From Umbilicaria muhlenbergii (taxonomy: Eukaryota > Ascomycota > Lecanoromycetes > Umbilicariales > Umbilicariaceae), in contig KK106981.1 in NCBI GenBank assembly GCA_000611775.1, positions 3,617,370 through 3,681,369 on the forward strand: DNA of 64,000 bases. Reading direction: 5' to 3'. The position numbers were made by a program, and so were the translations under genes. The notes beneath the pieces are model-generated. The model did no database searches, was not told the DNA's origin, and saw only the letters and a list, made by a program, of their open reading frames with translations. Shown in pieces: positions 1 through 37,640 of the stretch (position 1 is its first letter; each line of letters starts with the position of its first letter).

Positions 1-282
1 TCCGAGTGTTGCCTCAGTTAACTCAGACCCATTGCGAAGAACATGGCTGCGCCACAACTAGTCCCCTTCAAGAACTTCTTCTCCATAGGGTCTGAGCGCG
101 TTATTGATAATTACAGGCTGAAATCACTTCCAGACATGTAATTTAAGTTTAGTGCAATGCTCAGATATTTCTGCTGTGTACATCTGAGAAATACTTGTTT
201 TCTATCTAGTAATCAAAAACATAAACAAACTTCTCACACGTTGAGAACTTATCTCTTTACACTTATTTTCTGTCACTGCTCT

Positions 283-424
283 GCTGCCTTTTCTGCTGCC
301 TTTTCTGCTGTTTTGCTGCTGTTTTCTCTGCTGTTTTTTCTGCTGATTTTGCTGCTGTTTTCTCTGCTGTTTTTGCTGCGGTTTTCTCTGCTGTTTTTGC
401 TGCGGTTTTCTCTGCTGTTTTCTG
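283..424. repeat. CTG-rich degenerate tandem repeat
   Basis: A run of TTTTCTCTGCTG-like units contains two perfect 24-bp copies at 370-393 and 394-417, flanked by degenerate copies. On the minus strand it is open and would encode a Lys/Gln/Arg-rich tract. It lies inside the putative transposon and may be the remains of a charged transposase tail, or simply a microsatellite. Confidence 0.6.
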
Positions 425-807
425 CGCGCGCAAGTTTTGTGCATGTTATGCACATCACTATGCAGAAGTTATGCAAAATCTCTACATTTTCATCATACAG
501 AAGATTCTGTGCTAGGGATTTTTATATAACTCAGTCCGGAGGCTGCTATCAATGAGTCTAAATGGCGAAGCAATTTTGAGAGAGTGTGACCGTCTAGTTT
601 TTGAGATATAAGATCACTGTTTTGAACTGAAAAGTGCACTCTGTGAAGACTTAAGAAACTGTTCAATAACAAGACACTTTTTTGAAATACTGACTACAGC
701 ATTAGATAAAGCGGCCATTATATAATCTATTACAGTTGTAAAATTGAATAACAAAATTGTGGTTGATTTTGTGTGACAGTTGTGCCTACAAGACTTGAGA
801 TTTTGAC

Positions 808-11396: not shown

Positions 11397-14300
11397 ATGC
11401 CGCCCCCATATACGCCCTCGCAGAAAAACGCCATCGCCCAGTTCGTGAGCTTCACACACGCCAAGGACAGTATTGCTGCAAGAGTAAGTCGCATCCCCCA
11501 TGACTCCATGCGCCGACGGCTCCTTCATGTACTGCCCTGTTATCCTGCACTGTACTGTCTTTTCCCCAGACGCCCTACCGTCGTTCCTTCTCGATCTGGC
11601 AAAGCAATTGGCTAACACTGGGCTACCCGTAGCACCTCAAATCGCATGCATGGAACGTGGAGCAAGCGGTAGATGCGTATGTAAATATCAATTTCTTCAC
11701 ATCGTTTTCCTGGTTTTCTTTAGGTTGTATCATACAGGGGCGTTGTCAACAAGGACTACGAGGCCTAGAGTGTCATGGGGGGCAAGTCACACGAGGGCCC
11801 CTGGAATACCCCTCAGGCTTCTCACTGCAAGGACGAGACTCCAGAGGCAGACCAAGTCTGGGAAGACCAAGGGGATGATACCGCGGAGAGGAGGCTCCGC
11901 AAGGCGAGAGCTCGACTGGACAGGAAACTAGCGCAGAATCACCTGAGTCGTGGAAGGGAGACCATGCTAGACGACGACGAGGAGGAGAACTCCAAGATGC
12001 TGCTCAACCTAGACGACACAGGTTCATTTGAATATGATCTCGGCGAATACCTGCATGATGATCCGGAACAATCATTGGACCCGTTGCACTCGAGGGAGAT
12101 CTCTATGCTCAAAATACAGGACACCTTCCTCCTGCTATGTGAAAAAGCAAAGGATCCCACTAGTTGGGTCGATCCCAAAAAACTACCTTCAATGTTTCGC
12201 TTCGCTCTCCGTCGTCCCTTGATGCCAGAAAGGGAGCTTTACTGGAACTTGGCGGTTGTCGGTATAGATCCTTCCCTTGGATTCCTTGACCGCGACGATT
12301 ATACCCCAGAGGGATCCCATCGACGGCCTAGACAGATATTGAAGGGCATAACGTTCAGTCAAGAAGAAAGAGGTCATGTTAGTAGGAGGTACGAACGTTT
12401 ACCGAAGGGCCTTTGCCTCCTGACGGGTCATGTAGATGATGTCGATGATGCTAGCTCCGCGGAAGATGAACCCACTGATCAGGATGAGATGATAGCAGAA
12501 CTTTGGACTGTTTTCAACGGAGTCGAAGCTCACGAGATACGCCTCGAAGATGCACCAACGAGGTATCGGGATGTCCTAAGCGCCTTTGACTGCGGCAATG
12601 ATGAACTTGCGGCGTGGTTGGAAGATCTTGAGATTCCTAGCGACCACATTGATTGTGGTAGTCATCAGGCAGCACTCTCGAAAGCCTCTGGTAGTCCGAG
12701 CGTTGCTACAAGTCCCACGCTGCTCAAACAAATTGCAAGGCTAGTCCAGCTTCATCGCTCAAAAGATATCCGAGTGGAAGACTTTCTTACACTTCTCCGA
12801 GGAAGAATGGCTGGCTTCATCTTCAACGAGGATGTAATCATGGGCTATGTTAGGAATTCTGGCTTCGACGCAGAAGCGGTTGCTGATCTCCTTGTTGGGA
12901 AGAGCAACTCAACGTCCTCTTCTGCTAACGGAAGTGCAACACCTGCACAGGAAGAGTTATATCGATCGCCCCTTGAAACATCAAAGCTCGAAAGACCTGT
13001 GTTGGGCGATTCCGTCAAGCAAGACCTCAAAGGAGAATTCGCAGCAATACATAGGGAGGTATTGTGCTCACATATCTCTTTTGGCCGCGCCCTATCACGT
13101 TTCCGGGAGCTTTTGGGTGATCCTGATATGAGCAACGCCGTATTGTCCAAAAACCTTGTGGCGTATGGTATTCCCCCGGACCTGTTCTTTGGAGGTGAGA
13201 ACCTCGATGAAACCCCTCCAAAACTAGATGGCAGTTTAGAGGAAGCACAAATACCCTGTTTCAAAAAACCACGGATAACCCTGAGGCTTCCGGCGAAATC
13301 CAGTTGTCCTACCTCGCCCAGAGATCTAAATTCGACGACTACAGCATCCCGCAGTGTTTCAACAAACAGAGATACAGAAGATCATGTTCTTACTGAGAAA
13401 GCAATGCTCAAGATGCCCCCTCATGATGATTACGATGCAGCTTTGAAAGTTCAGGCAGATACAACGCCCGGCACCATCTTACAGTCCTCACCGGCCTCTT
13501 CTGGAGGTATATCGTCTGATGAGCAACAGTCTCCAACCACTCAAGCCAAGCAGCAGCCGGAGCAGCATCGAGAGGATGGTTCTTGCCAGACCGCCTTGAC
13601 AACTCAGTCTACGCAGAAAGCTCATTCGAGAAGTAATGAAAAGTCTGTAGATCTTCAGGGCTTAGTGCCCACCAGCATGCTAACAGATCCCGTGGATCCA
13701 CACTCCAAGCCTGAGGTCACTGAGATTGCTCAATCCGTTGAGCACGCAACTTTTGCGCAACCCCTCCTTTGTAATAGGCTAGACAAGTCTAAACAGAACA
13801 ATAAGGCACAAGCAGAGTCACCAAAACCACGAGCTGGAACGCCCATGCCGAGTGCCTCACTGCCACTGTCTGTCTTATCGCAACGTCGCAACGAAAGTAT
13901 AGGGATTGAATGGAAGCGGTATGCGACTTGTTTCGCAGGGAACCCTAGCGAGGAGTTTTATGATCGCGGAAGGCTATCTGTCTCCCCCGAGAAGGGTACT
14001 TCGGTCGACTTGTTTGGATTGCCCATCCCTACAAAAGATGCTCGCGACATGGCCAAGGCCATGAAATTGCCACCCGATTTTGCCGAAAGGCGGATCCGGT
14101 CTACAACGCCTCGAAGGGTCAGTGCACAAAGATTTGAGAAAGCAACCTCCAATATAACATTACCGAGCCCTAAGCGTAAATCCTCTACCACTTCGGAACC
14201 GGGTCATCGGAAGATGATGAAACAGGAGGCCACAGAACCTGATGTGTTCGCTGCAGAAGGGCAAGATCATGACGACTTCATTCGAAGCTTATTTACCCCT

Positions 14301-16435
14301 GAGATTCTAAGTCAGTCGGGTCTGGCATGCGGCTGGTGTCTTGAAATGAAATGCCTTTGCGGTAGAAGCAAGGAGACAAAGGAGGAGGACGCCTCTGAGA
14401 AACTGAGTAGCACACCCATGGAGCGAGATACACATCCAATGCTTCTTCAACAGCCCCCGACTTCTGTGGAAAAAAATGAACACAGTTCCACGACAGATCT
14501 AAGCTGGCATCTTCTCAAAGAGGCAAGCGAGACCTGTATCTTTGGCGCGGTGGGTACTGACGAAGCCGCCAATGCTGCTCTTTCCTTGACTTCGATTGCA
14601 ACAAATCATCAGATTACGCTGGATACTGTTGTAGGGAATAAGCGCAAGAGCAATGTTATATCTGCAAGGAATCTCCCAGCCAGCGATGAGACCACCAATG
14701 GAAGTACAGAACACATTGAAGTTTCAAGCCAAGACGAGTGCCCTCCCAAGAAGGGTGAAAAGTTAACCTCAGAGGCAACAGATCAACGGTCCAGTGGTCG
14801 TGGCGAAGATATTGCTCCACCTCCCACACCTGGGCAAACTTCGTGGGAATCAAGTCCTCTTCCGGCCGTCAGATACTCAATAGTAGATGACGTCGGATTA
14901 ATCTCGCCTGTCTCTCGTGATTCATCTTTCTCGTACGAACCGATGGGCCAGGGGTTGGAGGATCCATCAGACCTGGAAGAAACTGCAGCACCCGATGAAC
15001 CGAGCTTACCACTGTCGCGGTGTCCATTCTCCTCATCCACATCAGCACTTCGTGAATCATCTGCACAGGCAGAATCAGAAGATACAGCAGGGGCAGATCC
15101 AGTGACGCTATCCATGTCACGGCGTCCGCGTTCATCGTCAAAGTCTACGCTTGTAGAGTGGCCTGGCCAGACAAAGGAACAAGACGCAGGGGTCCCAGAT
15201 GAATTGATGCCGCCACTGTCGCCCCGTCCACCACCCACGCCACACCCAAGAGCGCTGAAATTACCGGGCAAGCTACTGGATAGCTCCTCCTCAATAGATG
15301 AAAGTCAAGCCAAACAAATTGGATCAGGAGGACTGCATCGACGACGTGCATCAATTCGAGCACGCACCGGATCCGAAACCCTGTCGGTTCGTACGAACAA
15401 GTTAAAGGCACAACGGCGGCGATACAAACTGTTTGAGCGTAGGAGAAACAGGCAAAAGGGGATGTCATACGCTCGGACGCTCGACCGGGTACTGGAAGAG
15501 GGCCGTCGTGAACACAAGTCGTATTTTGTTGTCATGGCGGAATTGAGACACAAAAGAATTCAAGCTAACTTGCTAGCGCGTCAATACAGGTTTTTCCAGA
15601 CTTCTAACGGCCTGTCGGGCCCTTCGGGGCAGACGGTAGCTCTCAGCAAACTGTTCGACAAATATCGAGGTTCGCGAAACTCCATCAAGTCCTTTTGCAG
15701 TGGTAATGGCTAATGAGTATGCTCTTGGTGCAGAAGAAGCGACCGAGAGCCCCGACACCATCGGCGTCGAAGGCTCAATGAAATATCTCGGCGATCTCGG
15801 CGTCAACCTAGACGAAGTCGTCGTCCTCGCCGTCCTCGCAGAGCTCCAAGCCCCCACCATGGGCGAATTCAGCCGCGAAGGATTCATCCAAGGCTGGAAA
15901 ACCTACAGGCACTCCCCCCCCCCAACCAAACCCCTTGTTCCCCAAAACCCACTCCCCCACAAGTCCGCACCGCTAACATACTCCCCCGTTCCCTCACCGC
16001 AGCGCCGACACCCTCACCAAACAACAATCCCTGATCCCCCAATTCCGGCGCCACCTCACTACCGCCCCCGACTTCTTCAAACGCGTCTACAAACACACCT
16101 TCCTGATCGCGCGCTCCCCCGGCCAAAAGTCCGTCCAACTCGACACCGCAATCGAATACTGGCGCCTCCTCTTCACCAACCCCAGCATCGCGTGGCATAC
16201 CCCCACGACCCCTTGGCTGGAGTGGTGGATCGAGTATCTCGAGGCCAGGTGGAAGAAGAGCGTTAATAAGGACATGTGGGACCAGACGGGGATTTTTGTG
16301 GGGAAGAGTCTGGCGGATGAAAGTATGGGCTGGTGGAGTGAGGATGGGGCGTGGCCGGGGGTGTTGGATGAGTTTGTGGGGTTTGTGAGGGAGAAGAGGG
16401 CGGAGGCGGAGGGGGAGAGGATGGAGGTGGAGTGA
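11397..16435 (+). CDS. dcn1: Cullin neddylation factor Dcn1 with a giant second intron
   Basis: Exons 11397-11483, 11633-11676, 15590-15669, 15734-15908 and 16003-16435 join in frame to 272 residues, the normal Dcn1 size. Exons 1-3 give a UBA-like domain ([32 protein letters not shown]). Exons 3-5 give the PONY/DUF298 domain ([55 protein letters not shown]). Dcn1 is the co-E3 that helps Ubc12 attach Nedd8 to cullins, activating cullin-RING ligases. Intron 2 is 3,913 nt (donor GTATGT, branch GCTAAC, acceptor ACAG), against 64-149 nt for the others, and carries a long same-strand open frame. Intron 4 appears to be GC-AG (AG/GCACTC). The gene faces saf1 tail to tail. Confidence 0.9.
11775..15713 (+). 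CDS. 1,312-codon open frame inside dcn1 intron 2, function unknown
   Basis: An uninterrupted ATG-to-TAA frame fills most of dcn1 intron 2. The sequence looks protein-like: an N-terminal ordered-looking part (about 30-420, including [19 protein letters not shown] and [18 protein letters not shown], the latter faintly UBA-like), a long Ser/Thr/Pro-rich middle, a Cys cluster ([11 protein letters not shown], from about residue 852), and a basic C-terminal part ([31 protein letters not shown]). I recognise no family. The last 41 codons overlap dcn1 exon 3 in the same frame and end at a TAA inside dcn1 intron 3. It may be a nested gene or an alternative first exon of dcn1. If intron 3 is removed, the frame continues into the PONY domain. 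Expression is unproven. Confidence 0.6.
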
Positions 16436-16877
16436 GGGTGGGTTGTGAGTGGGTCGAGTGAGGGGTGTGAGCGCTGAAGCGGAGTGACGGGCTGATGAGG
16501 ATAGGAATTAATGATTATGAGCGTTGTTTTCAGCGGTTGACTGCTCGCTAGCATGGTTAGGGCGCGGGTGGGATGGAACTGCTTATGAGACAGACGTACC
16601 TTAGATATTGATCATAGAAGCATGATCCGGTCGTTTATCAGTCAGGAAGTAAGATCTTCCTTCCGGGTATTCTTGACCACTGTGCATTTTTATTTACCAC
16701 CAGCTTACCTACATTTCCGGTGGTTTATCACAACTCGTCAGCTATATGAGAACATCAAGAACCGTGCCCCAACTCCCGGAAGAGAGAACAGAACGAAGTG
16801 CGCGAATCCATTCAAACCCATCATCCTCAGCCCATACCATATGTACGCCCTCATCTCCAACTCCCCCCGACCTTTTC
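16436..16877. other. Convergent spacer between dcn1 and saf1
   Basis: About 440 bp between two gene ends. The left part is G-rich on the + strand and the right edge C-rich, following the skew of the flanking coding ends. No gene seen. Confidence 0.5.
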
Positions 16878-19405
16878 TTACTCCTCTCTCATCCCCCAAT
16901 CCGGCTCCTCACCCCTCCATTCCGTCAACGGCACACTCCCCGGCATCTCCTCCCCACCCGGCAATCTCAACCTCGGAAACGGCCGATCCCGCCACGCATA
17001 CACCACCCCATCCACCCCTCCATCCGCATCCGCCCCACTTTCGCCCATCCCACTCTCCTGCGCCACCATCGAAGCGACCCCTGCCCCGGTCCCCGGTCCC
17101 ACACTCCCACTCCCCCCCCTGGCTCCCAGCCCCAAAAACCACCTGCCGAGCATAACGACATAAGCCCAATACCACGCGATCGCAATCTCGACCTGCTCGA
17201 ACGGCGAATGCGGTCCATTGGGCCCATCCTCCTCATCGCTGCCCGGTCCATCATCCCCCTCATCGTCGGCGACAAAGTCTTCGTCGAATTCTCGTTCCAA
17301 CTCCGCGGCTTGCACGGCGGCGGATTTGAGGATGTGGAGGTGTTCGACGCGGGTGGCTTTGGCTTCGTCGACGAGGACGAGAGCGCCGCTGTGCCAGCCG
17401 GCGGCGCTGACTTTGAGGGCGAAGAAGGGGGTGAGGTCGGGGGTGGGGGTCGTGGGTGCGTTACTGGAGGAAGACGAGGAGGGGGATGAGGAAGGTGAGG
17501 AAGGGAGACTGGTGGTCCAGGCTCGGCCTTCGCGTTCGAACCATTCGCTCGTGACGATGTGGGCGTCCGAGGTGGAGTCGCTGATCATGCGCCAGCGGTC
17601 CGCGGCTTCGGGCTGTTGAGCTTTGGTCACCATGTCCTGCAGCCAGATTCGCTTTTCCTTTTCGAACCAGATGCTGCGGCCGAGGCGGATCTTGTTGGCT
17701 TCGAGATAGGCGTCTTGGGCGAAGCCGCCGTCGGCTCGGACGCCGCGGAGGAGAGCGTGTATGCGGGTTCCGAGGCCTAGGGCACCACATGCTCGGGACT
17801 CGCGGCCCCAGGAGGTGATGATGCCGTTGGAGTGGAGGGCGTGGAAGTGGTAGTCGCCGAAAGCGAGGGAGATGACGTTAGTATTCTGGAGGGCTGGTAT
17901 TATGGTGGGTTGTGGGAGCGTAACTTCCGGTGATGAGCCATTGATCCTGTGGGAACGGACAGCATCGAGGAAGGCCCTGTCAGCGATGAGGACCTTGCCA
18001 GAGGCAGTGAACACCGCAAAACTTCTGAAAGACCCTTGAACGTCACAGATCGGATCATCAGGTGATGAAAATGACGTGATTTCAATAGGACCCTCTCCCG
18101 TAGACCCTTGATGAGTGGACTGGGATGTCGTATCGAAGAGAAAAACTTTGTTCAGGCTGGTTTTGAAGACTATGTACCTCTCAAGAACGATGTGATTAGT
18201 GACTTCGCCGACTTCATGCGCTGACGGCGAGTTGCGGTCGTCGCCTCTCTGACGGTAGCCAGTTCCAGGAATCGTGAAGCATTCAGACTCAAGCGTATCT
18301 TCTCCTACCCTTCCAAGAGGCGGTAATTCGTATGGCCAGTAAATTATACCTGTGCCGTTAACATAAATGGTGCTTTTGTCCCAGCCTATCAGGAGTTTCG
18401 TAAGCTCTTTCTATCTGAATAATTGCAATGGATCGTGCCATTGTCTTACCAGCAACGACCCGTGTGACTCTTCCCACTCCCGACGTCAGCCCATTCTCAA
18501 CCAAGTCAACGTGCAGAGGCCGCATGTTCCAACCGTGTTGGTTGATGTTGTGCCACATCCACACCTTGCCACTGTCTGCCAATCCGAGAACGTGAGAGCG
18601 ACCCGTAGAGAATTGTCTTATAGCTGTAGCAGGTTCGTACCACCTGTTACTACTCATTGGGTAACCCGGAGGGAAATGTAATCGGACCAGGCTTGGCATG
18701 GGTGCTTGATCGAAAAGTTCCCCATTCATCACACCAACAGCATAGACAGCGCCATCGGCGTTAAGCAGTGTAGTCGACCATCCCCTACCTCAATGTTAAG
18801 ATTAGCCCCACGAGTCTCCAAAGATTTCAGATCGTTTAAACCCCCATTGTCTATCTTGACTTACCCACATTGTAGGTCTGCAACGACACCAACGTCGTCC
18901 ACACCCTCCATCCTTGCAGGCCATCCTACCGTCCTACCTGCCCTCAATTGTCGCTGGTAGTGCGGCAACCGATTCGATTCATCTCCTGTGGGATAGCCAT
19001 GTCCTAGGTTACCTTGTTCATTGTTGCCCCACGTAAAGACCCTCGTTTGTGTTAGGAGATGCCTGTAAAGCCATTGCCAGCGGGCGCCATCGGCCTGGAG
19101 GAGGGGTTGCGGGGGAATGCGGAAAGTGTTACGGGTAAGAGTGCGCCAAAAGGTAGGGTCAAGGCGAAATGAAAGTAAAGCTTTCTTACATACGGAAGAA
19201 ATCAGCAGATTCGTTGGAGAAGGGAGGGGAGAAAAGGGTTAATCAAAGAGTACCTACAGCAGAACTCGTGAGGGAAAGGAAATCCTGAGCATCGAGGTAG
19301 GGGAAGATAGCGAAAAGGACGTCAGTGGCTGTCTCGTGATATCAGAGGCAAGCCGGTCTTTCTGTAGCAACGTTGATACATACGCAGGTCGGTGAGCAGC
19401 ATCAT
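16878..19405 (-). CDS. saf1: F-box/RCC1-repeat protein, SCF-associated factor 1 (Saf1)
   Basis: Five exons (19405-19384, 19328-19258, 19184-18865, 18784-18450, 18385-16878) join in frame to 751 residues. The N-terminus is an F-box (LTDLPTDVLFAIFPYLDAQ, residues 4-22), which recruits Skp1. RCC1-type blade motifs follow: RVFTWGNNEQGNLGHG, then HVLGLADSGKVWMWH and HALHSNGIITSWG. In yeast, Saf1 is the SCF substrate receptor for adenine deaminase Aah1 as cells enter quiescence. A poly-Ser and acidic insert lies in the C-terminal third. Introns are 55-80 nt with GT-AG ends and CTAAT-type branch sites. The frame is open upstream to an earlier ATG at 19504; I chose 19405 because family members begin just before the F-box. 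Confidence 0.85.
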
Positions 19406-20031
19406 GTCAAGACTAGAAGCCAGACTTGATTTCGTCTCCGCTGAAACGGCTGAAGGCTTGTGGTTGATGTGCCCAACATGTCCTTTAAGATGATGGGCGA
19501 ACACAGATCGAGCAGCTAAGGCAAGGTACGCTTGAGAATATCACATGTTAGCATCGGGGAGGAGAAAGCACGCGTCAACAGCTGCAGCTTAGTCATGTCA
19601 CTACCTGAAGGTAGGGTATTTGCTGTACGGCAAACAGGTCTCCTCAGCCGGATGGATTTACAACACAATTTCCTTGAAATGGATCCTTCCGATTGCCTTA
19701 GACTGAAGGACGGCTAGGTTGAGGCTAAAGAAATAGTCACGTTGATGTATGACGCTACCTTAGTAAGTGGAAATCTCCCCGAAGTTGTGCTTCATTTCCA
19801 ACGCAAGACTAATGCCGAGAAACGACATGCCAAAACAAATTAGATATTCTTATTTTACACCTACAGCACTTCTCTCAATCCGACTCAAGTCGGCAACCCG
19901 TAGGCTCACCGATTCATCGTAGAGTTGTCTAGCAATACCATGGTCCGCTGCCGAGGCTCCTTAGGGCTCCCATTCATCGACTCCTTCCCAGTTCCAGCAC
20001 CAAAAGCCAAACTATCGACAGCTTGCCCCTA
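19406..20031. other. Upstream region of saf1, no gene seen
   Basis: About 630 bp between the saf1 start and the stop of the next minus-strand gene. It should contain the saf1 promoter. Nothing else recognised. Confidence 0.5.
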
Positions 20032-20671
20032 TCACTTCCCAACCCACGTCACATTCCCAGAACCAACCTGGTTGGGCCCGTCATGAATGTCGAAGTTCAT
20101 TCCGCCGTTGAAACTGAAGTACTGGACAAAATCCAACAAGGCACTATACGCGGCGCTCAACACCCCCCACGTCGTTTGATGGTTGCCTGCATCCCACGTT
20201 TGCACGTCCACGGGCCCAGAGATGTACTGCAATGGATGCCCTATCACGCGGTCATTGGTCATTGCCAATTCTCCCCGAATGTCAACAGCAATCTCGCGGA
20301 GCGAGGAGTAGAGGGCCGAGGCTTGCGGGCCGGCGGGGAAGGGCGAGGTGAGGGTGATTGAAACGAACGACTCGGTCCCCATGGCGCACCATATGACAGG
20401 CTTCTCCTGGCGTTTGACAAAGGGCGGGGGAACGGCACCCTGCAAGAAAGTGCTGGATAGTCCTGTAAGCTTTGCTTTCTTCCTTGCCCAGTGCGATTGA
20501 CAAGGAACGCTGGAATTACCTTCCGGCCACTGTGTTTGGGGAATTGGCACAATATGGTACAGGTAGAATTGGGGTCGGTCGATGCGTGGGTCCTCTAAAG
20601 AAGGACTCTGCTAAGCTTAGAACAGCGCATTGGCTCCATCCTAAAAGGACGGAGAGACTGGAGGCGCGCAT
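20032..20671 (-). CDS. Small secreted protein of unknown function
   Basis: Exons 20671-20520 and 20452-20032 join to 190 residues. The first 20 or so residues (MRASSLSVLLGWSQCAVLSL) form a plausible signal peptide. A Lys-Arg pair in VPPPFVKRQEK (about residue 65) looks like a Kex2 site. The rest contains MTNDRVIGHPLQYISGPVDV and NHQTTWGVLSAAYSALLDF, a pattern I associate with uncharacterised secreted fungal proteins. Few Cys are present, so it is not a classic Cys-rich effector. The intron (67 nt) uses GTAATT and TCCAG; a second acceptor at CTTGCAG does not keep the frame. The role is unknown; an extracellular or host-contact function is only a possibility. Confidence 0.6.
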
Positions 20672-21655
20672 TGTCCTTTTTCTCCAGAATATGAAGGACC
20701 AAAGGTGACACATAATGTCACCAGCGACTTATTTACATGTTTTCGATCCCTTCCTTTGGTCGTGTAGACAGAAAGGCCAACAGCAGTCTCGCTCCTCGCC
20801 GGCCCGAGAAGTCGCCTATAGCGATATGTTTCAAGGTGTTTCCGATCCCAGCTTCAAACATGCATCTGCACAGCCGGCAGTCCGGATTACAACCAACGAG
20901 ATTAGAAAATCTGAAGCGTACCTGAGGTACTTAATAAATTGACACCGAGAAACCAAGGATGAAAATTATACATATTAGAGCACCATCCAGATGCTTGAAT
21001 TTCATTTGCCATCCTCAATTGGGACAAAGTTACCGAATGAATCACCAAGTTTTGTGTATGGAACTTGAATCATGCAGTCAACATACCGACATCGAGCTGA
21101 TTCTTCTGACCATGTATATTGAAGGGTACCTTTGCACAACCAATAGGTGTGGACAAGGCACAGTCTCGGTTGGTGATAGCTGCGCCTTTGACAACCCCAG
21201 ATTGTATGGTGGCCATTTACCAAGTTCACCGTAATCGCTGAAGCTCCCGCAGAGGCTGAAGATAGTGATTTCAGGGTAACTTGCATCTCATACGAGAAAG
21301 TAAGTAATCCTATAGGGTGGCAATGAACGCCTAGAGTTTGCGCGTGCAGCTCTTCAGATCGTCATCATGATGATCATTAGGAGCAAGAGTGTATCGTCTC
21401 GCTCCGATAGCGGGCATGGTGGGCGCGATGGGCTAAAACAAGGGATACACTTCGACGGGAGATCATCCCTTCTGCATGCTCCTCCAGTGTTTCTGCGGAG
21501 ATGCTGAAGCTAATGCATACGTGAAAATATGCATGAACTTGGATAAGTTCCCTGGGTCGCGGGAGATGTAACGCTCTTCGCGGCGTTGAAGACCCTTGGT
21601 CATGAGCTTCCGAAACCCCCGAAAGCATATGTCGCGCGAGATCGTTTCCTAGATC
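20672..21655. other. Intergenic region, no confirmed gene
   Basis: About 980 bp upstream of the secreted-protein gene. It contains the palindrome GGTGACA-CATAA-TGTCACC at 20705-20723. Two small overlapping minus-strand frames near 21000-21290 are not supported as a gene. It should hold the PLAC8 transcript end. Confidence 0.4.
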
Positions 21656-22783
21656 TCATCGTGGTGGTGGTGCGTAGGACATTGACTCTGGTGCGATGTA
21701 TGCACCGCTTGCAGGACCTGCATGTCTTCGAATGAGCTCCTCTCGGTCGCGTACTTCTCTCTCATCTTGCATCAGGACGCAACAGCAGCAGCAAAGCGAC
21801 TTGAGACAGTCTTGACCGAAGCTGCCATGGAGGTGGTAGAGTTTACGGATTCGTGTATGTTGAATCATAGCGGCAGCCCCTACAAGAAAGTATCAGCGCA
21901 TCGTATGCTTGCGCAGACTACGGCTAGGGCTCATCTTACATTGAAACCCGCATACCGACGCCATAATCCCACAGGAGCCATTGCAAGACTTATAGCCTAA
22001 AAGATCCGTAGCGTCTTGTTTTTGGGCTTTCTGTGACAGGCGGTACTGTGTCTTGCCGTAGAGCACGCAAGGGCACCAGATACCCAAGCAGCATATTGTG
22101 TCAATTTCACAAAGACCATGTTTCCATTCGGGGTTCACTGCCGCGTTAGGATGCGGAACTTGTCCTGGCCGATGAGCTTCAGGTGCACTGTTGGGTCCCA
22201 AAAGAGAATCAGGATTATAGACAGCCGGCCTGCGGTCAACGTCAGGTGCTACTGCTTGCGCATGGAGCGCTGACAGGCCAGTCGTAGCAGTTGGTGGCAA
22301 AACTGGAGTTGGCACTGAGCCTGCCATTTCGCCCTCAGTCTTGATTGGTATCGGTCCAGGGGACTGTGGAGGTTGTGGTTGTGATCTGTGCTCTTGTCGC
22401 TGTGGAGACATCCCGTCATCGGCATATGGGGCGAAGTGTGCCGGGTGAGATTGTGAAGGAGCTGGGAAGTTGTATGGCGATGCTGTGCGCTCAACCGCTG
22501 GTTTCTTTTCAACAGGATATCCCGAGTCCACGTAAGGCAGTGGAAGCCCCCTGAGGTCTTGCTTTGATACTGGTGACATTGGAGACTCCTCGATCATGGA
22601 ATCGGTCGGGCTTGACAGGGGGTAGAATGTGGGCCGCTGCATTTCGATTGGCGTTTCTGCGTACGAGTATCGAGGGTCGCGATTTGTGTCTTGAGTTTGT
22701 TGGAGCTGGCCTGGCGAAGCTTCCAAACGCATTCTACGTTGTCCTGAGGAGCCTCTCGTGGCAATCTGGGGGTTTGAAGCCAT
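21656..22783 (-). CDS. PLAC8-family cysteine-rich protein
   Basis: Exons 22783-21940 and 21879-21656 join to 355 residues. Residues 1-215 are Pro/Gln/Ser-rich and probably disordered. The PLAC8 domain follows, starting KHGLCEIDTICCLGIWCPC (from about 223) with the signature CCxxxxCPC, then SCNGSCG, and after the intron a run of five Cys (SLCCCCCVLMQDERE). PLAC8 proteins are small membrane-associated proteins linked to cell size control and metal or calcium handling in plants and animals; the role of fungal members with long N-termini is unclear. The intron is 60 nt (GTAAGA...GTAG). The spliced join CGFQ-W restores the family pattern. Confidence 0.88.
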
Positions 22784-24030
22784 CGTGCCAACAGGTATCT
22801 GGTCTAAAGGCTTCCTGCAAGAACATGCATGTCAGAGATAAGCTTGAAATTTGAATACTTGATCGCACCTTTGCTGCCCTGTCAAGCCCCGTTAGGACAA
22901 TTGTCAGCTGCGTATGCCGAGTCCAGGGTGTGTGATATCAGTGGAGAATCGGGTGTGGTATGATACTGACAGTCCTCCAAGCGCGGCTTGAAGCCGCTTA
23001 CATGGGTGACTTCCTGTGATACTCTATGACTGGTAGTCGATGTTCTGCATCTTGGGGTCTCTGAGCCCGCCTCGAGCACGCCGAGGGCGGCGTAAGGAGC
23101 CATTGGAGGATACGGGGTAAGCGCCGAAGGCTGAGAAGCGAGGGGAGGGCACAAGCGAATCAAATACGAGGAACCCCTGCTAGTCCACCCGTCGTAACGG
23201 CTGCTGTGGCAGGGGTGGCGAAGATCAAGGTCGTGCTTGACTCGATGAGGATCGCGAAGTCCGAAAGGTGCGGATCTTTTACCACTGAGGGATGAGACCT
23301 CGGTCAGAAGTGGCAATACGAGGTAAGTAAGCCATCTGTTGCCAGCCGATTGGGTGCAACAAGTGGCTCATGTCACTGACCTGATAAGTCGACAACCAAG
23401 TTTTAATTCCAGAATCTACGATTGCGATTTCACTTCTCAATGATCGTTGATTTCCAATGACTACACCTTGCATCCGTCCTTCCCAACGTTCTTGCGTGTT
23501 GAGTAGTTCGTGGAGCCCCGCAGCTGAGAATGGGATATGAAGAATCATCTGAATAAATCAAGAATGGAAAGGCGAAGTAAGAAAACCCTAAGCATGAAGG
23601 TCATACGGCTTAAGCTCCTCCTTCACACATTGGGTGTCAATGATGGAGGGTGTCCCGCCCGACGATTGGCACTCGTTTTGACCCTGCGCCTGACGATCGA
23701 ATGTAGAACACCCCGTTCCAAGGGTGGGAAGGAACAATCGCGATGCAATGAGACTACCAAGGAGCATGGTCGGATGTCTCCAATAAGGAGTCTTGAATTG
23801 TTCGAGATCAACTGCGCTTTTCCCGGTAATGTACACTATTTACATTATGATTGCATAGCAATAGGTCAACAGCAGTTGCTCAACAGTACTTCCCGAGCTT
23901 GACCTATCACACCGAGGCTGAGGGGCCTTCCTGATACGACCGTTGAACATGCCTTCACATTCAAAGCTGACAAAGCGCCCTCTTTGCTACGTCTGGACAA
24001 TTTCATTACAGCCAATCACTCCTCGACCTC
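22784..24030. other. Intergenic region upstream of the PLAC8 gene, no gene seen
   Basis: About 1.25 kb. Short frames on both strands show no domain or credible splicing. It should hold the PLAC8 promoter and 5' leader, and the 3' end of the next minus-strand gene. Confidence 0.5.
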
Positions 24031-25283
24031 CTATTCTCGAGGGTCTACGGTTCCTTTGGCTTTGGCAGTTTCCGGACTACCGTCACTCTTCGAAGACTTC
24101 TCCTCATCACCGGCAACATCCGTTGAGTGCTTGGTATCGGTGTTCGTCAATCCTGCTTGCTTGCCAGACATAGTGTTTTGGCTTCCCTCTGGCTTCGATG
24201 GAGCGGGCTGTGTTGTTGTCAGCACACGACCAATAACGACATCTCTCTTGCCTAGATGCCGGGGACTAACCTTATCCCTAACTTTGCCATCCACTCTTGT
24301 TTGCCCTTCAGGGTCTTCAGCTTGTTTTATCCCGTAGTCACTCTCTATCCTCTTCTTGTTTCCACCCTTCGGGTCTGGGTAGCTCTTTCTCGTATCACCT
24401 GGCTTGCCGTCCTTCGTAGCACCCTTGAATTGGACACCTTCGACATCTCCACCGCCATCCTTCAGCTGGGTTTCATTTTCCGACTCCTCGTCGTCCGAAG
24501 TATCTGGAGTGTTTTGCTGCTCTTCTTCCTCGCCACTCGACTCCTCAGACTTACCCTCCTCTTCGTCAGACCCGCTTGTATCATCACTGGACTGCGTTTC
24601 ATCTTTCTCATCACCTTCAGGTTCGCTGTCATTACCGTCCTCGGATGTCGCATCCTCCTCTACATGCTCTTGATGACCACGGCCCTCATGTTCCGGATCG
24701 TGGTGCCCGTGGCCCTTATCTGGACCCGGTTGAAGAAGAAACGCGCAAGATGGAACAGTGACCGCAATGGCTCCAATCAACCTATCAGCAACCATTATAT
24801 TAGCTAATCATACTGCATTGATTTTCAAAAGACATTCCAAGGATGTAAAAGCAGCAGGTACGTGGCCATTAGGATCGGCGGTTGCCTGTTTGGGGGCAAT
24901 GTCAACAATACAACAATCAAGAAACATCCTGTCAGATATCCAGCATGTAAATTCCGGAAGCCAATGGCCCGTATCAATGGCATTCTAGGAATTGCTCGGT
25001 ATTAAGTAGTCGACGGCTCTAGGAACTGAGAAATGCTACTTCTTTTGATCTTGCGCCTGGTAGTGTTTCTAGAGCGCTTGAAGAGACACAGATGAATGAC
25101 AATCATGCGTTGAGCATACCAGGGCAGATCACTTCCTGATTTTGTTGCACCATGATCACCTCCACTTGCATAGCCTCTTCTTAGTATCTGACGCCATAGT
25201 TGAGGGCGAGACGGAGCACGGGCTGTCCTCACAGCTGGGTTCCTGAGAGCACCCCAAGGAATCGAAGCTCGCGGAAGTACCAT
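24031..25283 (-). CDS. Acidic mitochondrial membrane protein, conserved in fungi, function unknown
   Basis: Exons 25283-25120 and 24781-24031 join to 304 residues. The N-terminus is Arg/Ala-rich without acidic residues (MVLPRASIPWGALRNPAVRT), a typical mitochondrial presequence. One membrane segment follows (WLIGAIAVTVPSCAFLL, about 55-71), formed across the intron. The rest is hydrophilic: a His-rich patch (HGHHDPEHEGRGHQEH), about 80 residues dominated by Glu/Asp/Ser, then conserved-looking pieces GVQFKGATKDGKPGDTRK and KKRIESDYGIKQ, and the end ETAKAKGTVDP. I recall similar hypothetical proteins in many filamentous fungi but no assigned function. The intron is 338 nt, long for this region, and could hide a small exon. 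It is divergent from cand1. Confidence 0.72.
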
Positions 25284-25861
25284 TGCAGAAGATAGAATAT
25301 AATTGCGGTGAATACAAAAGTTCTCTGAGAATAAGGGCACTTTCCGTGGGCACTCAATTGGACAAAACCGAGGTAGATGATTGGGAGGTCGTGGTCGGAG
25401 GAGGGTTGGAGCTTTGAGGTTGAGAAGAGACTACGTCAGGCACAGCCGAAAGCTCAAGCTCAACACCAGCAGACACACCTTGCCTTAACAGGAACCCCGC
25501 CGCCCAGGACTGAGGCAGCCCTATCGCAAGGTATTGGGGCTCAGATAATTAGGTCAACAGTAGATTTATCTTGTGTCTCTGGCCTTGAGTTCGTCGTCTT
25601 GTTCCAGTCTCTTAGAATAAACGAAGGGATGCTCTCATTTCCGTGACATGCATTTGCAGAGAGGTGCCACGCGTTTTCTACAGTGTACGTCTGTTTTCCA
25701 CCTCAAATGGGGGGTGTTTTCTAAACAACTGCCAGTTGTGATCTAGCTTTCATTTGACTACCTCACTCACGATTTCCTGCGACCCTGACGATCTCACCAA
25801 ACCCCAATAAGCCAAGATTACCGCCTAATCTGTTTGCCCTCTCAAAGTACATGATCCAACC
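25284..25861. promoter_or_regulatory. Divergent promoter region, mitochondrial protein / cand1
   Basis: About 580 bp between two start codons pointing away from each other. It must contain both promoters. No specific site was recognised. Confidence 0.5.
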
Positions 25862-28800
25862 ATGTCGAGCGCCGTTCCCCAGCACCCAAACGCGAACAAT
25901 GTAGCAGCGTTGCTGCCCAAACTCAACGATCCAGACTCCGACCTCCGGTACATGTCACTCAATGACCTCTACAATATATTGAACGCGGGAGCCCCGAATT
26001 TCCTGCTCAGCGACTATAACACATGCGCACGGACGATCGATGGCCTGCTGAGGACGTTAGACGACCAGAATGGTGAGGTCCAGAATCAAGCGATCAAGTG
26101 GTAAGCGCCTCCAGAACAAGGTACATGGAGAGCTCTTCTCCGGCTAAGTCTGTTCACAGTCTCGGTCCCCTGGCTCAGAAGGTGCCTCCGGAGATTCTGG
26201 CTCCATTGATCGAAAAGCTTTCGAATCTAAAAACCACAAACTCGGTGGATAACTCAATACCTGCTACTGCTTTACGGACCCTGATCATCTCCTTCCCAAG
26301 ACCAGTACCAGCAATACCGCCTTCTAAGCCCACTCAAGACGCATACTCCGCCATCAGCAAAGTGCTCATACCTCGCCTCGTCGGCTACGTAGTGATATCT
26401 CATGGGATCCGAAATCAGCCGAATCCTCCACCTGGGCTGTTGGAAGTTGATCCGGAGAGGGGCGTCGACAGTGATGCAATCGATGTTCTTACTGAGGTTG
26501 TGAGGTGTTTCGGGCCGATGCTTCAGGATGCGGAGAAGAAAGCTCTACAGAGAGCCATCGTCAAGGTTCTCGACAACGAGCGGACAGGGACTATTATCAA
26601 GAAGAAAGCAGTGATTGCAATCTCTATACTGGCAGTCTATCTTTCCGATGCACTGCTGAGCGCCTTTGTCTCTGACACCATCGAGAGCTTCCGAAATCCT
26701 CATTTGACCCTTGCTAAGCGGCGCCTGCTCATTTCTATGGTAGGCTCACTCGCGAGGTCTGTACCACAAAGACTCGGACCTTATTTGAAAACTCTGGCCC
26801 CATTCGTGTTGAGTGCTCTGAGCCAGCAGGAGTACGAAGACTCGCTCGAAGAAATTGCTGAAGATGGTAGTCAAAACCCTGAGATTGAGGATGTCAGGGA
26901 AGCTGCTCTAGTGACCTTGGACAGCTTTCTTTCGTCGTGCAGTACCGAGATGCGTCTGTATACTGAGGAAGCCATTGAAGCCGCACTTCGCTATATTAGT
27001 TATGATCCAGGTTTGGCAATGGTTGAAGATGACGAAGAAATGGGAGGAACTCAAGATAGAGACGACGAGGAAGATGGGGATGGATCTGACGGGCTTGAAG
27101 ACGAAGAGGATGACTTCGAGGAAGAAGAAGGAATGAGTGATGATGACAACGCGAGTTGGAAAGTACGACGATGTGCAGCAAAAGTACTTTACACCATTAT
27201 ATCAACGCGGGGCAGTGGAGACCTCCTGGAGAATGGTACGCTATATGAGAAGGTAGCACCAGCACTAATTAGCTGCTTCAAGGAGCGAGAAGAGAACGTC
27301 AGGCTTGAGATATTAACAACATTGGCATCGTTGGTAAGGAAGACAGGCGAAGGGGTAACGTTACCTATATCTAGTGGGACCGATGCCGGCTATGTCTCGG
27401 CTTCGCAGACGACTTATTCTCGAAAGCGTCGACGAGGTGGAAGTGACGCCAACCTTTTCGATACTCATGGCACCTTTTCTTCCTCTATGGGAGCCAGTTC
27501 GCCAGCCGTTTCGCCACCTCCTGTTTCTGGTCCACGGGCTGATCTTGCCCGACTCAGCTCACCCATCATCCGAGGTGTTGCTAAATTGCTCAGGCAAAGC
27601 TCACTACCTACCAAGCAAGCTGGAATTACTTTACTGCGCGATATGGTTACAGTTCAACATGGCGGGCTCTCTGACCATTTGAGTCAGCTATCTGACCCAA
27701 TCATCGATGCTGTCAAAACTTCGAGTGCGCTAGCCGGGGGCTCTACTACCACCTCAACTGGCGGGGCTGCGTCTGCTACTGGTAGCAGTCTCCGGATCGA
27801 GGCGCTGCAGCTTGTAAGCGTCATCTGCGATACCCATTCATCGAGGCTGATAGTGCCATACGTTGGAGGGATTACCACGGCCGTCATCGCAGCAGTCAAA
27901 GATAAATACTACAAGGTAGCAAGTGAGGCTATCTACACAGCTGAAAGTCTTGTCAAGGTGATTACACCACCTAGATCTGCCGGTGCTGAGCAACAGCATC
28001 AGGCGTATCTGGACAACCTTTTCGATGTGATCCTTGACCGTATCACTGCGTATGACGCTGATCTTGAAGTACGGCAACGAGCTATGCATGCTCTAGGCGT
28101 GCTATTGGCTCGCACATCAGCAACGAATGTTGCAAGGCTCCTTTCACCCACAAAACGGTCGAGTGCACTTGATGTGTTGTATGATCGCCTGAAGAATGAA
28201 ACCACTCGGATCGCGGCCGTAGGAGCAATCGATAATGTGGCGGCGTCAGCAGCAGACAAGGATGGACTAAAATCAGACTGGGTACGAAATGTATCCCTGG
28301 AATTAGGAGCGCAACTGCGCAAGTCTGATCGGATACTGCGAGGTGCCAGCTTGGCGGCTTTGAAAAACATCGTAACCAACCGAGTTGCGCTTGCGAATCT
28401 TGACGACAGAACTGTTCGGGGATTAGTCGAGATGCTTCTCCCTCTGCTGAATGCGAACGACCTTAGTCTTCTGGGTCTGGCCTTAGTCGTCCTAGCGAAC
28501 CTCGTCAAGCGTAATCCCAAGCGGGTTGTCGATAGCAAACTGGACAGTGCATTGTGTACAGTTGTCCTAGCACCACTCGGCGGTGCCGTTCTCGATGCCT
28601 TCCTTGTCCTCGTCAGTGCCATTGGGGAACAGGGCGTTGGTGGAGCACTGATGCAAGGCTTCCTTAAGAATGTGGGGGTTACTGGTGAGCCAGCAATTGT
28701 GGGCAAAGCGATAGGCACACTCCTGGTTTGTGGTGGCCTTACGGTTGGTGTCAAGCTCGAAGATTTTGCAGCTGAATTGCAGTCTGCACAGGATGATCAG

Positions 28801-30096
28801 CGCAAGTGCTTAGCGCTTTCAATCCTTGGTGAAGCCGCTTTTCGCCTAGGAACGGCGTCGTCTCTACGTCCAAACCTTTTCATCACTCATTTCAAGTCGA
28901 AATCGGAGCAGGTACCTCGTGCGGCGGCTGTTGCATTAGGACGTGCAGGAGCTGGTAATGTGCCTATGTACTTACCTGTCATCTTGAAAGACATGGACAA
29001 GTCGGGGGAAACACAATACCTGCTCTTACATTCAATCAAAGAAATATTACAATATGCCAGTAAAACGCGGACTGATCTATCCCCGCATACAAAAGAGATC
29101 TGGAAAAAGCTGCTGGCGACATCACAAGCAGAAGACAATAAGGCTGTGGGAGCTGAATGTATAGGAAGATTGGCTATTATAGAGCCAGGGACCTTTCTTC
29201 CTTTGCTTCAGGTGAGAGTGTGCAGCGTTACCGGTCGGATCAATGGCTAACATAGCACGATCAGGGCTACCTTCAAGATTCAGTGCCCGCGGTGCGCGGT
29301 ATGGTAATCCAGGCAGTACGCTTCACTCTTGCCGATAGTGATGAGAATTTTGACGAGGTCTTGAGGCCAAACCTGATTGGCATGCTGAAGACCATGCTGA
29401 ACGATAGCAACTTGGAGAACCGACGACTGGCCTTGACAACCCTGAACTCTGCCACGCATAATAGACCACACATCATTCTTCCGCATTTAGCCCAGCTGCT
29501 ACCATTAGTGATGAAGGAGTCGAAAATCAAGCCGGAACTTGTGCGAGAAGTACAGATGGGTCCCTTTAAGCACAAGGTTGACGACGGCCTGGAGATTCGC
29601 AAGGTTAGTGCGGCCAGTTCCTTGGCTTCATTGCTCGTCTAACGTCAGGGAACAGAGTGCCTACGAGACTCTATACGCCCTCATGCAAAGCGCGTTCTCT
29701 CGCATCAACCCCATTGATCTTCACGACCGTGTGATTGCGGGTCTCGAAGACGAGCACGACATCAAAGTGCTCTGCAACCTTATGCTTACAAAGCTAGTCA
29801 CGCTGGACCCAGAAGAGACGGTCCGCCGACTCGATTCCATCGCCGAGCGGTTCCGGACCATTCTCGCGTTCAAGCCGAAGGAAAACGCAGTCAAGCAGGA
29901 AGTGGAGAAGGCGCAGGAGGCCAGTAAAGGTGTTTTAAGGGTCACTGTGATACTGCACAATGCGTTCCCGGCCACTGTGGGCCCAGCAGCGACTGCGCAT
30001 GGCCAGGCTTGGAAAGGCTACTGGGAATGGGTGGCGAAGGACTACAAGGCGCCGCTACTGGCCATGGAGCAGGAAGTTAAGAACCAGAATGGTTGA
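25862..30096 (+). CDS. cand1: Cullin-associated Nedd8-dissociated protein CAND1 (TIP120)
   Basis: Exons 25862-26100, 26160-29211, 29265-29603 and 29656-30096 join in frame to 1,356 residues. The protein is all HEAT-like helical repeats. It starts with LLPKLNDPDSDLRYMSLNDL and ends with the TIP120 region (SAYETLYALMQSAFSRINPI, HDIKVLCNLMLTKL). CAND1 wraps around un-neddylated cullins and exchanges SCF substrate receptors. Two inserts break the repeats: an acidic stretch near residues 370-410, and a basic/Ser-rich loop near 498-535 starting YSRKRRRGG, possibly a nuclear signal. In Aspergillus nidulans this protein is split between two genes; here it is one. Introns are 52-59 nt and phase-consistent. 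Confidence 0.95.
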
Positions 30097-36516: not shown

Positions 36517-37640
36517 TCAAGCCCCATCCTGCTTCTCAATAACCGCCCTATTAAGCGTAATCTTCTCCAAAATCTTCCCCGCCCCCTTCTCCACCAACTC
36601 CTGCGCCATCTTCCACCCACACTCGTCCGCCTCCTCCAAATTCCGAACCCGCTGTCTCCTCTCCCCCTCCACCGCCTCCGTCCCATCCAAACTCACCACT
36701 ATCGCCCTCATAACCAGCACATCCCCTGGATTTCCCTTCCCATCCACCTCCTCGTCCCCTCCACCCTCCCCCTCCCCCTCCACATCCCCAGCCTCCCACT
36801 CCGTCTCCACCCCAATCGGCACACTACACCCCCCCTCCAACGTCCTCAAAAGACTCCTCTCCGCCACCCCCTCCATCCAACTCTTCCCATCCCCCAACCC
36901 CTCCAGCACCGCCCTCACCCTCTCATCCCCCTCCCTACACTCCACCCCCAACGCCCCCTGCCCCACCGCCCCCANNNNNNNNNNNNNNNNNNNNNNNNNC
37001 CCCCCTCCCTCCCGCTCAAAAAACTACTAATCCTCGCCCCCAACCCCAACCGCTGCACCCCCGCCGCCGCCAGGATCAAACAACTATACCCACCATCCCC
37101 GCCCTCGTCGAGTTTCCGCAGCCGCGTCCCCACATTCCCCCTCACGTCCGCACACAGCAGCCGCGGGTACGCGCGCGCAATCTGCGCGCTCCGCCGCACC
37201 GAACTCGTCCCCACCACCGCGCCGGCCTCCAACTCCGCCAACGTCCGCACCCCCCGCGCCGCCAGCGCCGGCTTCATCACCACCACGTCCCGCCGGTCCG
37301 CGCGCTCCAGCACGCTGCCCAAACGGCAGCCGCGCGGCAGCTGCGTCGGCATGTCCTTCAGGCTGTGGACGATCAGATCCAGCGTCCCGTCCAGCAGCTG
37401 CGCTTCGAGTTCGTGCGTCCAGAGCGATTTGGCGTTGAAGGCGTGCAGGGCCGTCGTTTGGTTCTTGTCGCCGAGGGTGGCCATGGCGTGGATTTCGACG
37501 TGCAGGGAGGGGTGCAGGCGGAGGAGGGCGCGGTGGACGAGGGAGGTTTGCGCGAGGGCGAGGTCGGAGCGGCGGGTGCCGATGTGGATGGCGGCGGAGG
37601 GGGTGGGGAGGGAGGGCGAGGACGAGGGCTCCGTGGCCAT
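36517..37640 (-). CDS. hem3: Porphobilinogen deaminase (hydroxymethylbilane synthase), interrupted by an assembly gap
   Basis: The product starts MATEPSSSPSLPTPS and shows the family motifs GTRRSDLALAQT (21-32), DLIVHSLKDMPTQLP with catalytic Asp88, VGTSSVRRSAQ and CADVRGN. After the gap come GQGALGVECREGDE and LRTLEGGCSVPIGVE, whose Cys holds the dipyrromethane cofactor. The enzyme joins four porphobilinogen molecules in haem synthesis. Twenty-five Ns (36975-36999) sit just before GQGALG. The two sides are out of frame with 25 Ns; the true gap length must be 2 modulo 3, so this is a sequencing gap and not a mutation. The end near the gap is very G-rich on the coding strand, which may explain the failure. 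No intron is needed. Confidence 0.92.
36975..36999. other. Assembly gap (25 N)
   Basis: A run of 25 undefined bases inside hem3, in a region with an extremely C-rich + strand. The reading frames on the two sides do not match for this length, so the N count is nominal or slightly wrong. Confidence 0.98.

Follow-up and report, generated by a model that had tools for sequence, protein, structure and literature searches.

In the 64,000-nucleotide stretch of the Umbilicaria muhlenbergii genome analyzed here (contig KK106981.1, positions 3,617,370 to 3,681,369 of the forward strand; hereafter the window), the second intron of the dcn1 gene (plus strand, 11397–16435) holds a long open reading frame (ORF), termed X, which runs in frame through the intron's acceptor into exon 3. 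From the sequence, we tentatively favor, with confidence a little short of even, an alternative-first-exon locus in which a second Dcn1-type NEDD8 ligase, of giant size, would begin with X in place of the UBA domain. Somewhat more cautiously still, we suggest that one dcn1 gene may yield two NEDD8 ligases, a small UBA-PONY protein and a 1,500-amino-acid (aa) X-PONY protein with an undescribed part of about 1,275 aa; the two would be mutually exclusive because the exon of one is the intron of the other. The preliminary description of this DNA had taken X for a gene nested within dcn1 and made no mention that X continues past the acceptor in the same frame as exon 3.

The host gene was assembled from five exons. 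Exon 1 (11397–11483) contains the start of the UBA domain and is separated by intron 1 (11484–11632, 149 nt, GTAAGT...CTAAC...TAG) from exon 2 (11633–11676), which encodes the remainder of that domain and ends with the residues VDA. Exon 3 (15590–15669; FFQTSNG...FDKYR) follows intron 2 and is read in the frame of X. It is followed by intron 3 (15670–15733, 64 nt, with the off-consensus donor GTTCGC), exon 4 (15734–15908, PONY), intron 4 (15909–16002, 94 nt, with a GC donor, GCACTC, then CTAAC and CAG) and exon 5 (16003–16435), which encodes the rest of the PONY domain with the Cullin_binding match and the stop. Introns 3 and 4 were both required for the conserved dcn1 reading. Two successive dcn1 introns carry unusual donors (GTTCGC and GC, within 15670–16002), and the PONY exons might be spliced inefficiently or in a regulated way as a result.

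Joining the UBA exons (11397–11676) to the PONY exons (15590–16435) in frame, as the preliminary description had proposed, gave a 272-aa product. Its residues 7–262 aligned with human DCN1-like protein 1 (8or2_F, E = 6e-34) and residues 9–258 with yeast Dcn1 (3bq3_A), while the families Cullin_binding (PF03556) and UBA_4 scored 112.7 bits (cut-off 27.9) and 48.4 bits (cut-off 21.8), respectively, in the whole product. D219, A245 and D251 lined up with the human KD, GAWP and DDF positions, which form a D-A-D patch that we take to be the cullin-binding patch of the human protein. By its PONY domain, D-A-D patch and N-terminal UBA domain, the predicted 272-aa product is a putative Dcn1-type NEDD8 ligase. 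The residues of the yeast cullin-binding patch are named in passages of a study of these proteins (PMC4886823). A six-frame search of the whole genome (34,788,950 bases in seven contigs, with the window on contig 1) yielded a single PONY match, at the dcn1 locus (114.6 bits, one candidate scored), and no second dcn1 or PONY paralogue; hence, the dcn1 locus must cover all that the cell needs of Dcn1.

Intron 2 (11677–15589, plus strand) is 3,913 nt long. Its donor (GTATGT), acceptor (ATACAG) and branch-point-like GCTAAC (15564–15569, the second A lying 21 nt upstream of the intron's final base) are all consensus-like. Exon 2 meets 15590 within the UBA domain, and UBA_4 scored 51.3 bits for the 70-aa piece with exon 2 joined to 15590, compared with 43.3 bits for exons 1 and 2 alone; two other continuations scored 42.6 and 43.6 bits. 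This gain supports the join well and, together with the sole PONY match in the genome, indicates that 11677–15589 is intronic in the only dcn1 gene detected. An intron about 50 times longer than most others here had been claimed; the 19 introns predicted de novo, with a median of 77 nt, agree with that figure, which is indicative only because the scan was able to detect only introns of approximately 43–140 nt with consensus sites.

The X frame extends from the ATG at 11775 to the stop codon at 15711–15713 on the plus strand and would encode 1,312 aa with intron 3 left unspliced. It is closed upstream by an in-frame TAG (11766–11768) and spans 1,314 codons from stop to stop; 3,815 nt of it lie within intron 2 and 124 nt extend past 15589. 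When intron 2 was simulated with a second-order Markov model (300 runs, six frames), the longest frame had 318 codons and the mean of the maxima was 172. With stops arising at the simulated rate of 0.033 per codon, the probability of 1,271 open codons was approximately 2e-19. Both the long uninterrupted frame on the same strand and the view that chance was very unlikely to produce it were thus borne out.

X contains no stop in intron 2 and reads through the branch point, where GCTAAC is translated as the codons GCT AAC, and through the acceptor into exon 3. The sole downstream stop in its frame is that at 15711–15713, within intron 3; as removal of intron 3 is needed for the PONY domain, this stop would be lost from the spliced product. 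In our proposal, X and exon 3 together would form an alternative first exon that occupies 11775–15669 and continues in frame into the PONY exons at 15734–15908 and 16003–16435. Translation of X with exons 3, 4 and 5 gave 1,501 letters, of which the only stop was terminal, so that the 1,500-aa X-PONY frame contains a complete PONY domain and the join is open at the sequence level. Because X has no stop in the intron and continues into exon 3, the simplest mature product of a transcript containing it would be a PONY fusion.

Codon statistics were obtained by log-odds training on 48 frames of at least 280 codons from the window and from 200 kb of this genome, with X excluded. The log-odds were positive in the frame of X only and negative in the other five frames; in the first codon-bias scan, X outranked only 5 of the 48 training ORFs. 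Compared with stop-free simulations, X had a z of 6.5, and none of 500 simulations reached its score. Known exons in the same test gave z values of 9.1, 8.2, 8.6 and 3.4, controls that are optimistic because they are largely members of the training set. Divided into sixths, X yielded z values of 3.7, 4.2, 2.4, 2.9, 2.4 and 0.6, and its codon statistics are coding-like up to approximately 14.9 kb. No consensus intron candidate was found in X, compared with 10 in the 7.0 kb of three known exons, namely 5 in CAND1 (3.15 kb), 4 in the mitofusin-like gene (2.44 kb) and 1 in NDH2 (1.42 kb).

In the alternative-first-exon model, a transcript from the dcn1 promoter would have exon 2 spliced to 15590 and the 3.9-kb intron removed, giving the 272-aa Dcn1. 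A second transcript would begin inside intron 2, probably past a pyrimidine-rich tract (11692–11721, plus strand) that may mark the region of its start site. The first ATG from 11680 onward is that at 11775; it would therefore serve as the first AUG of a transcript that begins in the intron upstream of X, and 11775–15669 would form a single exon. With introns 3 and 4 spliced as usual, the predicted protein would be about 1,500 aa long, with X ahead of a complete PONY domain. Through X, this second cullin-neddylation activity may be steered toward a specific location or partner; the basic stretches of X make the nucleus or chromatin a possibility. We propose X as the targeting part because PONY binds cullins and promotes neddylation, and the N-termini set location. 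Mammals have five DCN-like proteins with a common PONY domain and a differing N-terminus that sets location; the UBA domain is dispensable for neddylation, and PONY binds cullins via its DAD patch, according to passages in PMC4886823.

Several results weigh against this proposal. The agreement of X with the frame of exon 3 has by itself a 1 in 3 chance, and the GC content at third codon positions (GC3) is 0.765 in the PONY exons versus 0.473 in X. The last 221 codons of X (14925–15587) gave a z of 0.6, that is, no codon-bias support, which leaves openness as the backing for this end: p was approximately 6e-4 for the last 221 codons, 0.04 for the last 97 and only 0.16 for the last 54. Two overlapping end windows, the last two of 11, scored z values of 0.9 and 0.1; among 24 known-gene segments of comparable length, only 2 had a z below 1, and these controls, too, come largely from the training set and are optimistic. 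The basic tail noted in the preliminary description is present (approximately residues 1181–1260), and the final 220 or so codons, to which it belongs, are those without codon-statistics support. With a looser donor pattern, nine overlapping intron candidates appeared in 15391–15632, and some of these would terminate X at 15605, 15637 or 15704; weak-donor introns near 15431–15439 could shorten X or shift its frame.

This fading codon signal would also suit an independent gene nested on the same strand, with X as a separate protein of 1,312 aa or slightly less that has its own intronic start and no PONY fusion; its true end might lie upstream, reached via a weak intron such as that from the donor at 15439 to the acceptor at 15589, with a stop at 15637. 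Otherwise its mRNA would have to be polyadenylated within or beyond intron 3, or keep that intron, and retention is conceivable given the GTTCGC donor of intron 3 and the GC donor of intron 4. A nested gene is the usual reading of a coding frame within an intron, and a large coding frame does lie in the dcn1 intron, as had been described. Its separateness was not established: the frame starts inside the intron and stops beyond exon 3, so that it is not complete from start to stop within the host intron. Moreover, X has no stop ahead of the acceptor, its C-terminus as read comes from exon 3 and intron 3 of dcn1, and the same intron 3 has to be removed for Dcn1. We regard a nested gene, the main rival of our proposal, as possible, though not the simplest explanation, and rather doubtful.

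It is improbable that X is an internal exon of a giant UBA-X-PONY protein, attached to the UBA exons through a short intron and either always included or sometimes skipped. Splicing of the donor at 11677 to 11738 (CAG) would set the UBA domain in the frame of X, and 11738–15589 is divisible by three, but this join meets the TAG at 11766 after 53 aa. Among the AGs considered (11717–11960), further acceptor-like ones that keep the frame lie at 11771, 11891, 11894, 11909, 11924, 11948 and 11957; however, only that before 11924 is a YAG, no CTRAC-type branch site was seen nearby by eye, and UBA_4 scores better with exon 3. Very improbable, in our judgment, is that UBA-PONY dcn1 is no longer made here, the UBA exons being remnants and X-PONY alone the gene. 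Introns of 3.9 kb are rare in fungi, and the donors of introns 3 and 4 are off-consensus, but consensus-like sites at both ends of intron 2 and an intact UBA frame persist, and weak donors would harm X-PONY equally. The size of X, its intronic position and the lack of a known family would suit an artifact, whether an inserted mobile element, an assembly error or an open frame that is not coding. We give this the least credence, since X is single copy in the genome, its region contains no N, element-type flanking direct or inverted repeats are absent, its codon statistics are coding-like, and its GC3 (0.473) matches that of two genes of the window, CAND1 (0.473) and PP2C (0.472). A mobile element in particular was rejected on the basis of the single copy, the absence of terminal repeats and the absence of an element domain in a Pfam search of the whole frame.

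The N-terminal third of the predicted X protein is acidic and partly ordered, and its long middle part is rich in S, P, T and Q. The Cys cluster mentioned in the preliminary description was located at 14328–14360 (plus strand) as C-x2-C-x4-C-x-C, comprising C852, C855, C860 and C862. The product had been said to belong to no known family, and a Pfam search with the whole of X indeed gave no family at E ≤ 10. A search with eight segments, which omitted 11775–11948 and 14661–15293, gave three matches, all below the cut-off (best E = 0.034). Among solved structures, only KIF1C matched (E = 0.56, X residues 1207–1272), and this was taken as chance. The genome search revealed no paralogue of X. Two pattern scans of viral contigs matched 5 and 2 stretches and a scan of prokaryote genome contigs matched 34, none of which was confirmed as a relative; these nulls are expected because those collections are without fungi.

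Four helical-looking segments of X (A, B, C and D, within 12090–13215) were chosen by eye, and three of their six pairs were alike by shuffling: the score was reached by 1 of 2000 shuffles for A-D, 2 of 2000 for B-D and 18 of 2000 for B-C. The pairs A-B, A-C and C-D were not above shuffles. Internal repeats in the N-terminal third are not claimed. Loose units of approximately 33 aa (PLS.RP...) were also seen by eye in the S/P-rich part at 14980–15260, where Tandem Repeats Finder (score 30) gave no report. N-myristoylation at MGGKSH was considered and rejected, as the sequence does not fit the PROSITE pattern.

Elsewhere in the window, Pfam identified frames for CAND1, NDH2, PP2C, an Mvp1-like and a mitofusin-like protein, with introns of fungal type; Mvp1 and mitofusin are labels that we presume for two of these genes. 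A mitoribosomal uL4 protein had its best match in a chain presumably from Neurospora (6ywe_D, E = 8e-78), to which it is by no means identical as judged by eye; together with the introns, this suggests a filamentous ascomycete of the Pezizomycotina that does not belong to the Sordariales. Three cullin-RING ligase genes were located inside 18 kb (11397–29250): dcn1, an RCC1-repeat gene (minus strand, approximately 16878–19320) whose F-box-like match is sub-threshold (20.7 bits versus a cut-off of 24.3), and CAND1 (TPR_CAND1, 110.5 bits). Mammalian DCNLs interact with CAND1, as stated in passages of PMC4886823. A run of 25 consecutive N occupies 36975–36999, and the AT-rich start of the window (280–430) contains repeated CTGCTGTTTTCTCTG-like units. 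Approximately 100 kb upstream of the window, a 100-kb block of contig 1 (3417371–3517370) has a GC content of 0.387, compared with 0.52–0.53 elsewhere, and is perhaps repeat-rich or centromeric.

Fungi and yeast are thought to rely on one small Dcn1. If the alternative-first-exon model is true, this fungus achieves a mammal-like diversification of Dcn1 within one gene, and the effect of a non-UBA N-terminus on cullin activation becomes directly testable. The gene structure would also be unusual, with a coding exon of about 3.9 kb in one product serving as an intron of the other and the catalytic exons shared. In open-licence PMC literature on fungal nested genes and fungal Dcn1, as far as its texts were available, we found no description of such an arrangement in fungal dcn1; opposite-strand nested genes are called rare in a passage of a fungal gene-prediction paper (PMC4363200). 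The proposed locus resembles the mammalian DCN-like proteins (DCNL1-5, SCCRO), in which one PONY domain is paired with different N-termini according to passages in PMC4886823. Unlike in mammals, which have five genes with short N-termini, one gene here would give two N-termini, one of about 1,275 aa. The locus also resembles the cholinergic locus, where VAChT and ChAT presumably lie on the same strand, as X and dcn1 do. There, VAChT has its whole ORF in a single exon that lies within the first ChAT intron, toward the 5′ end of the host gene, and several promoters operate together with alternative splicing; unlike X, VAChT has its own intronic stop and is not fused to ChAT (passages in PMC3053374). 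Human CPNE1 and RBM12 are similar in that two proteins arise from one promoter region by alternative splicing (passages in PMC2568002). Sharing of a coding 3′ end is described for neither pair in these passages (PMC3053374 for VAChT/ChAT and PMC2568002 for CPNE1/RBM12): CPNE1 and RBM12 share non-coding 5′ exons, whereas dcn1 and X would share the coding 3′ end.

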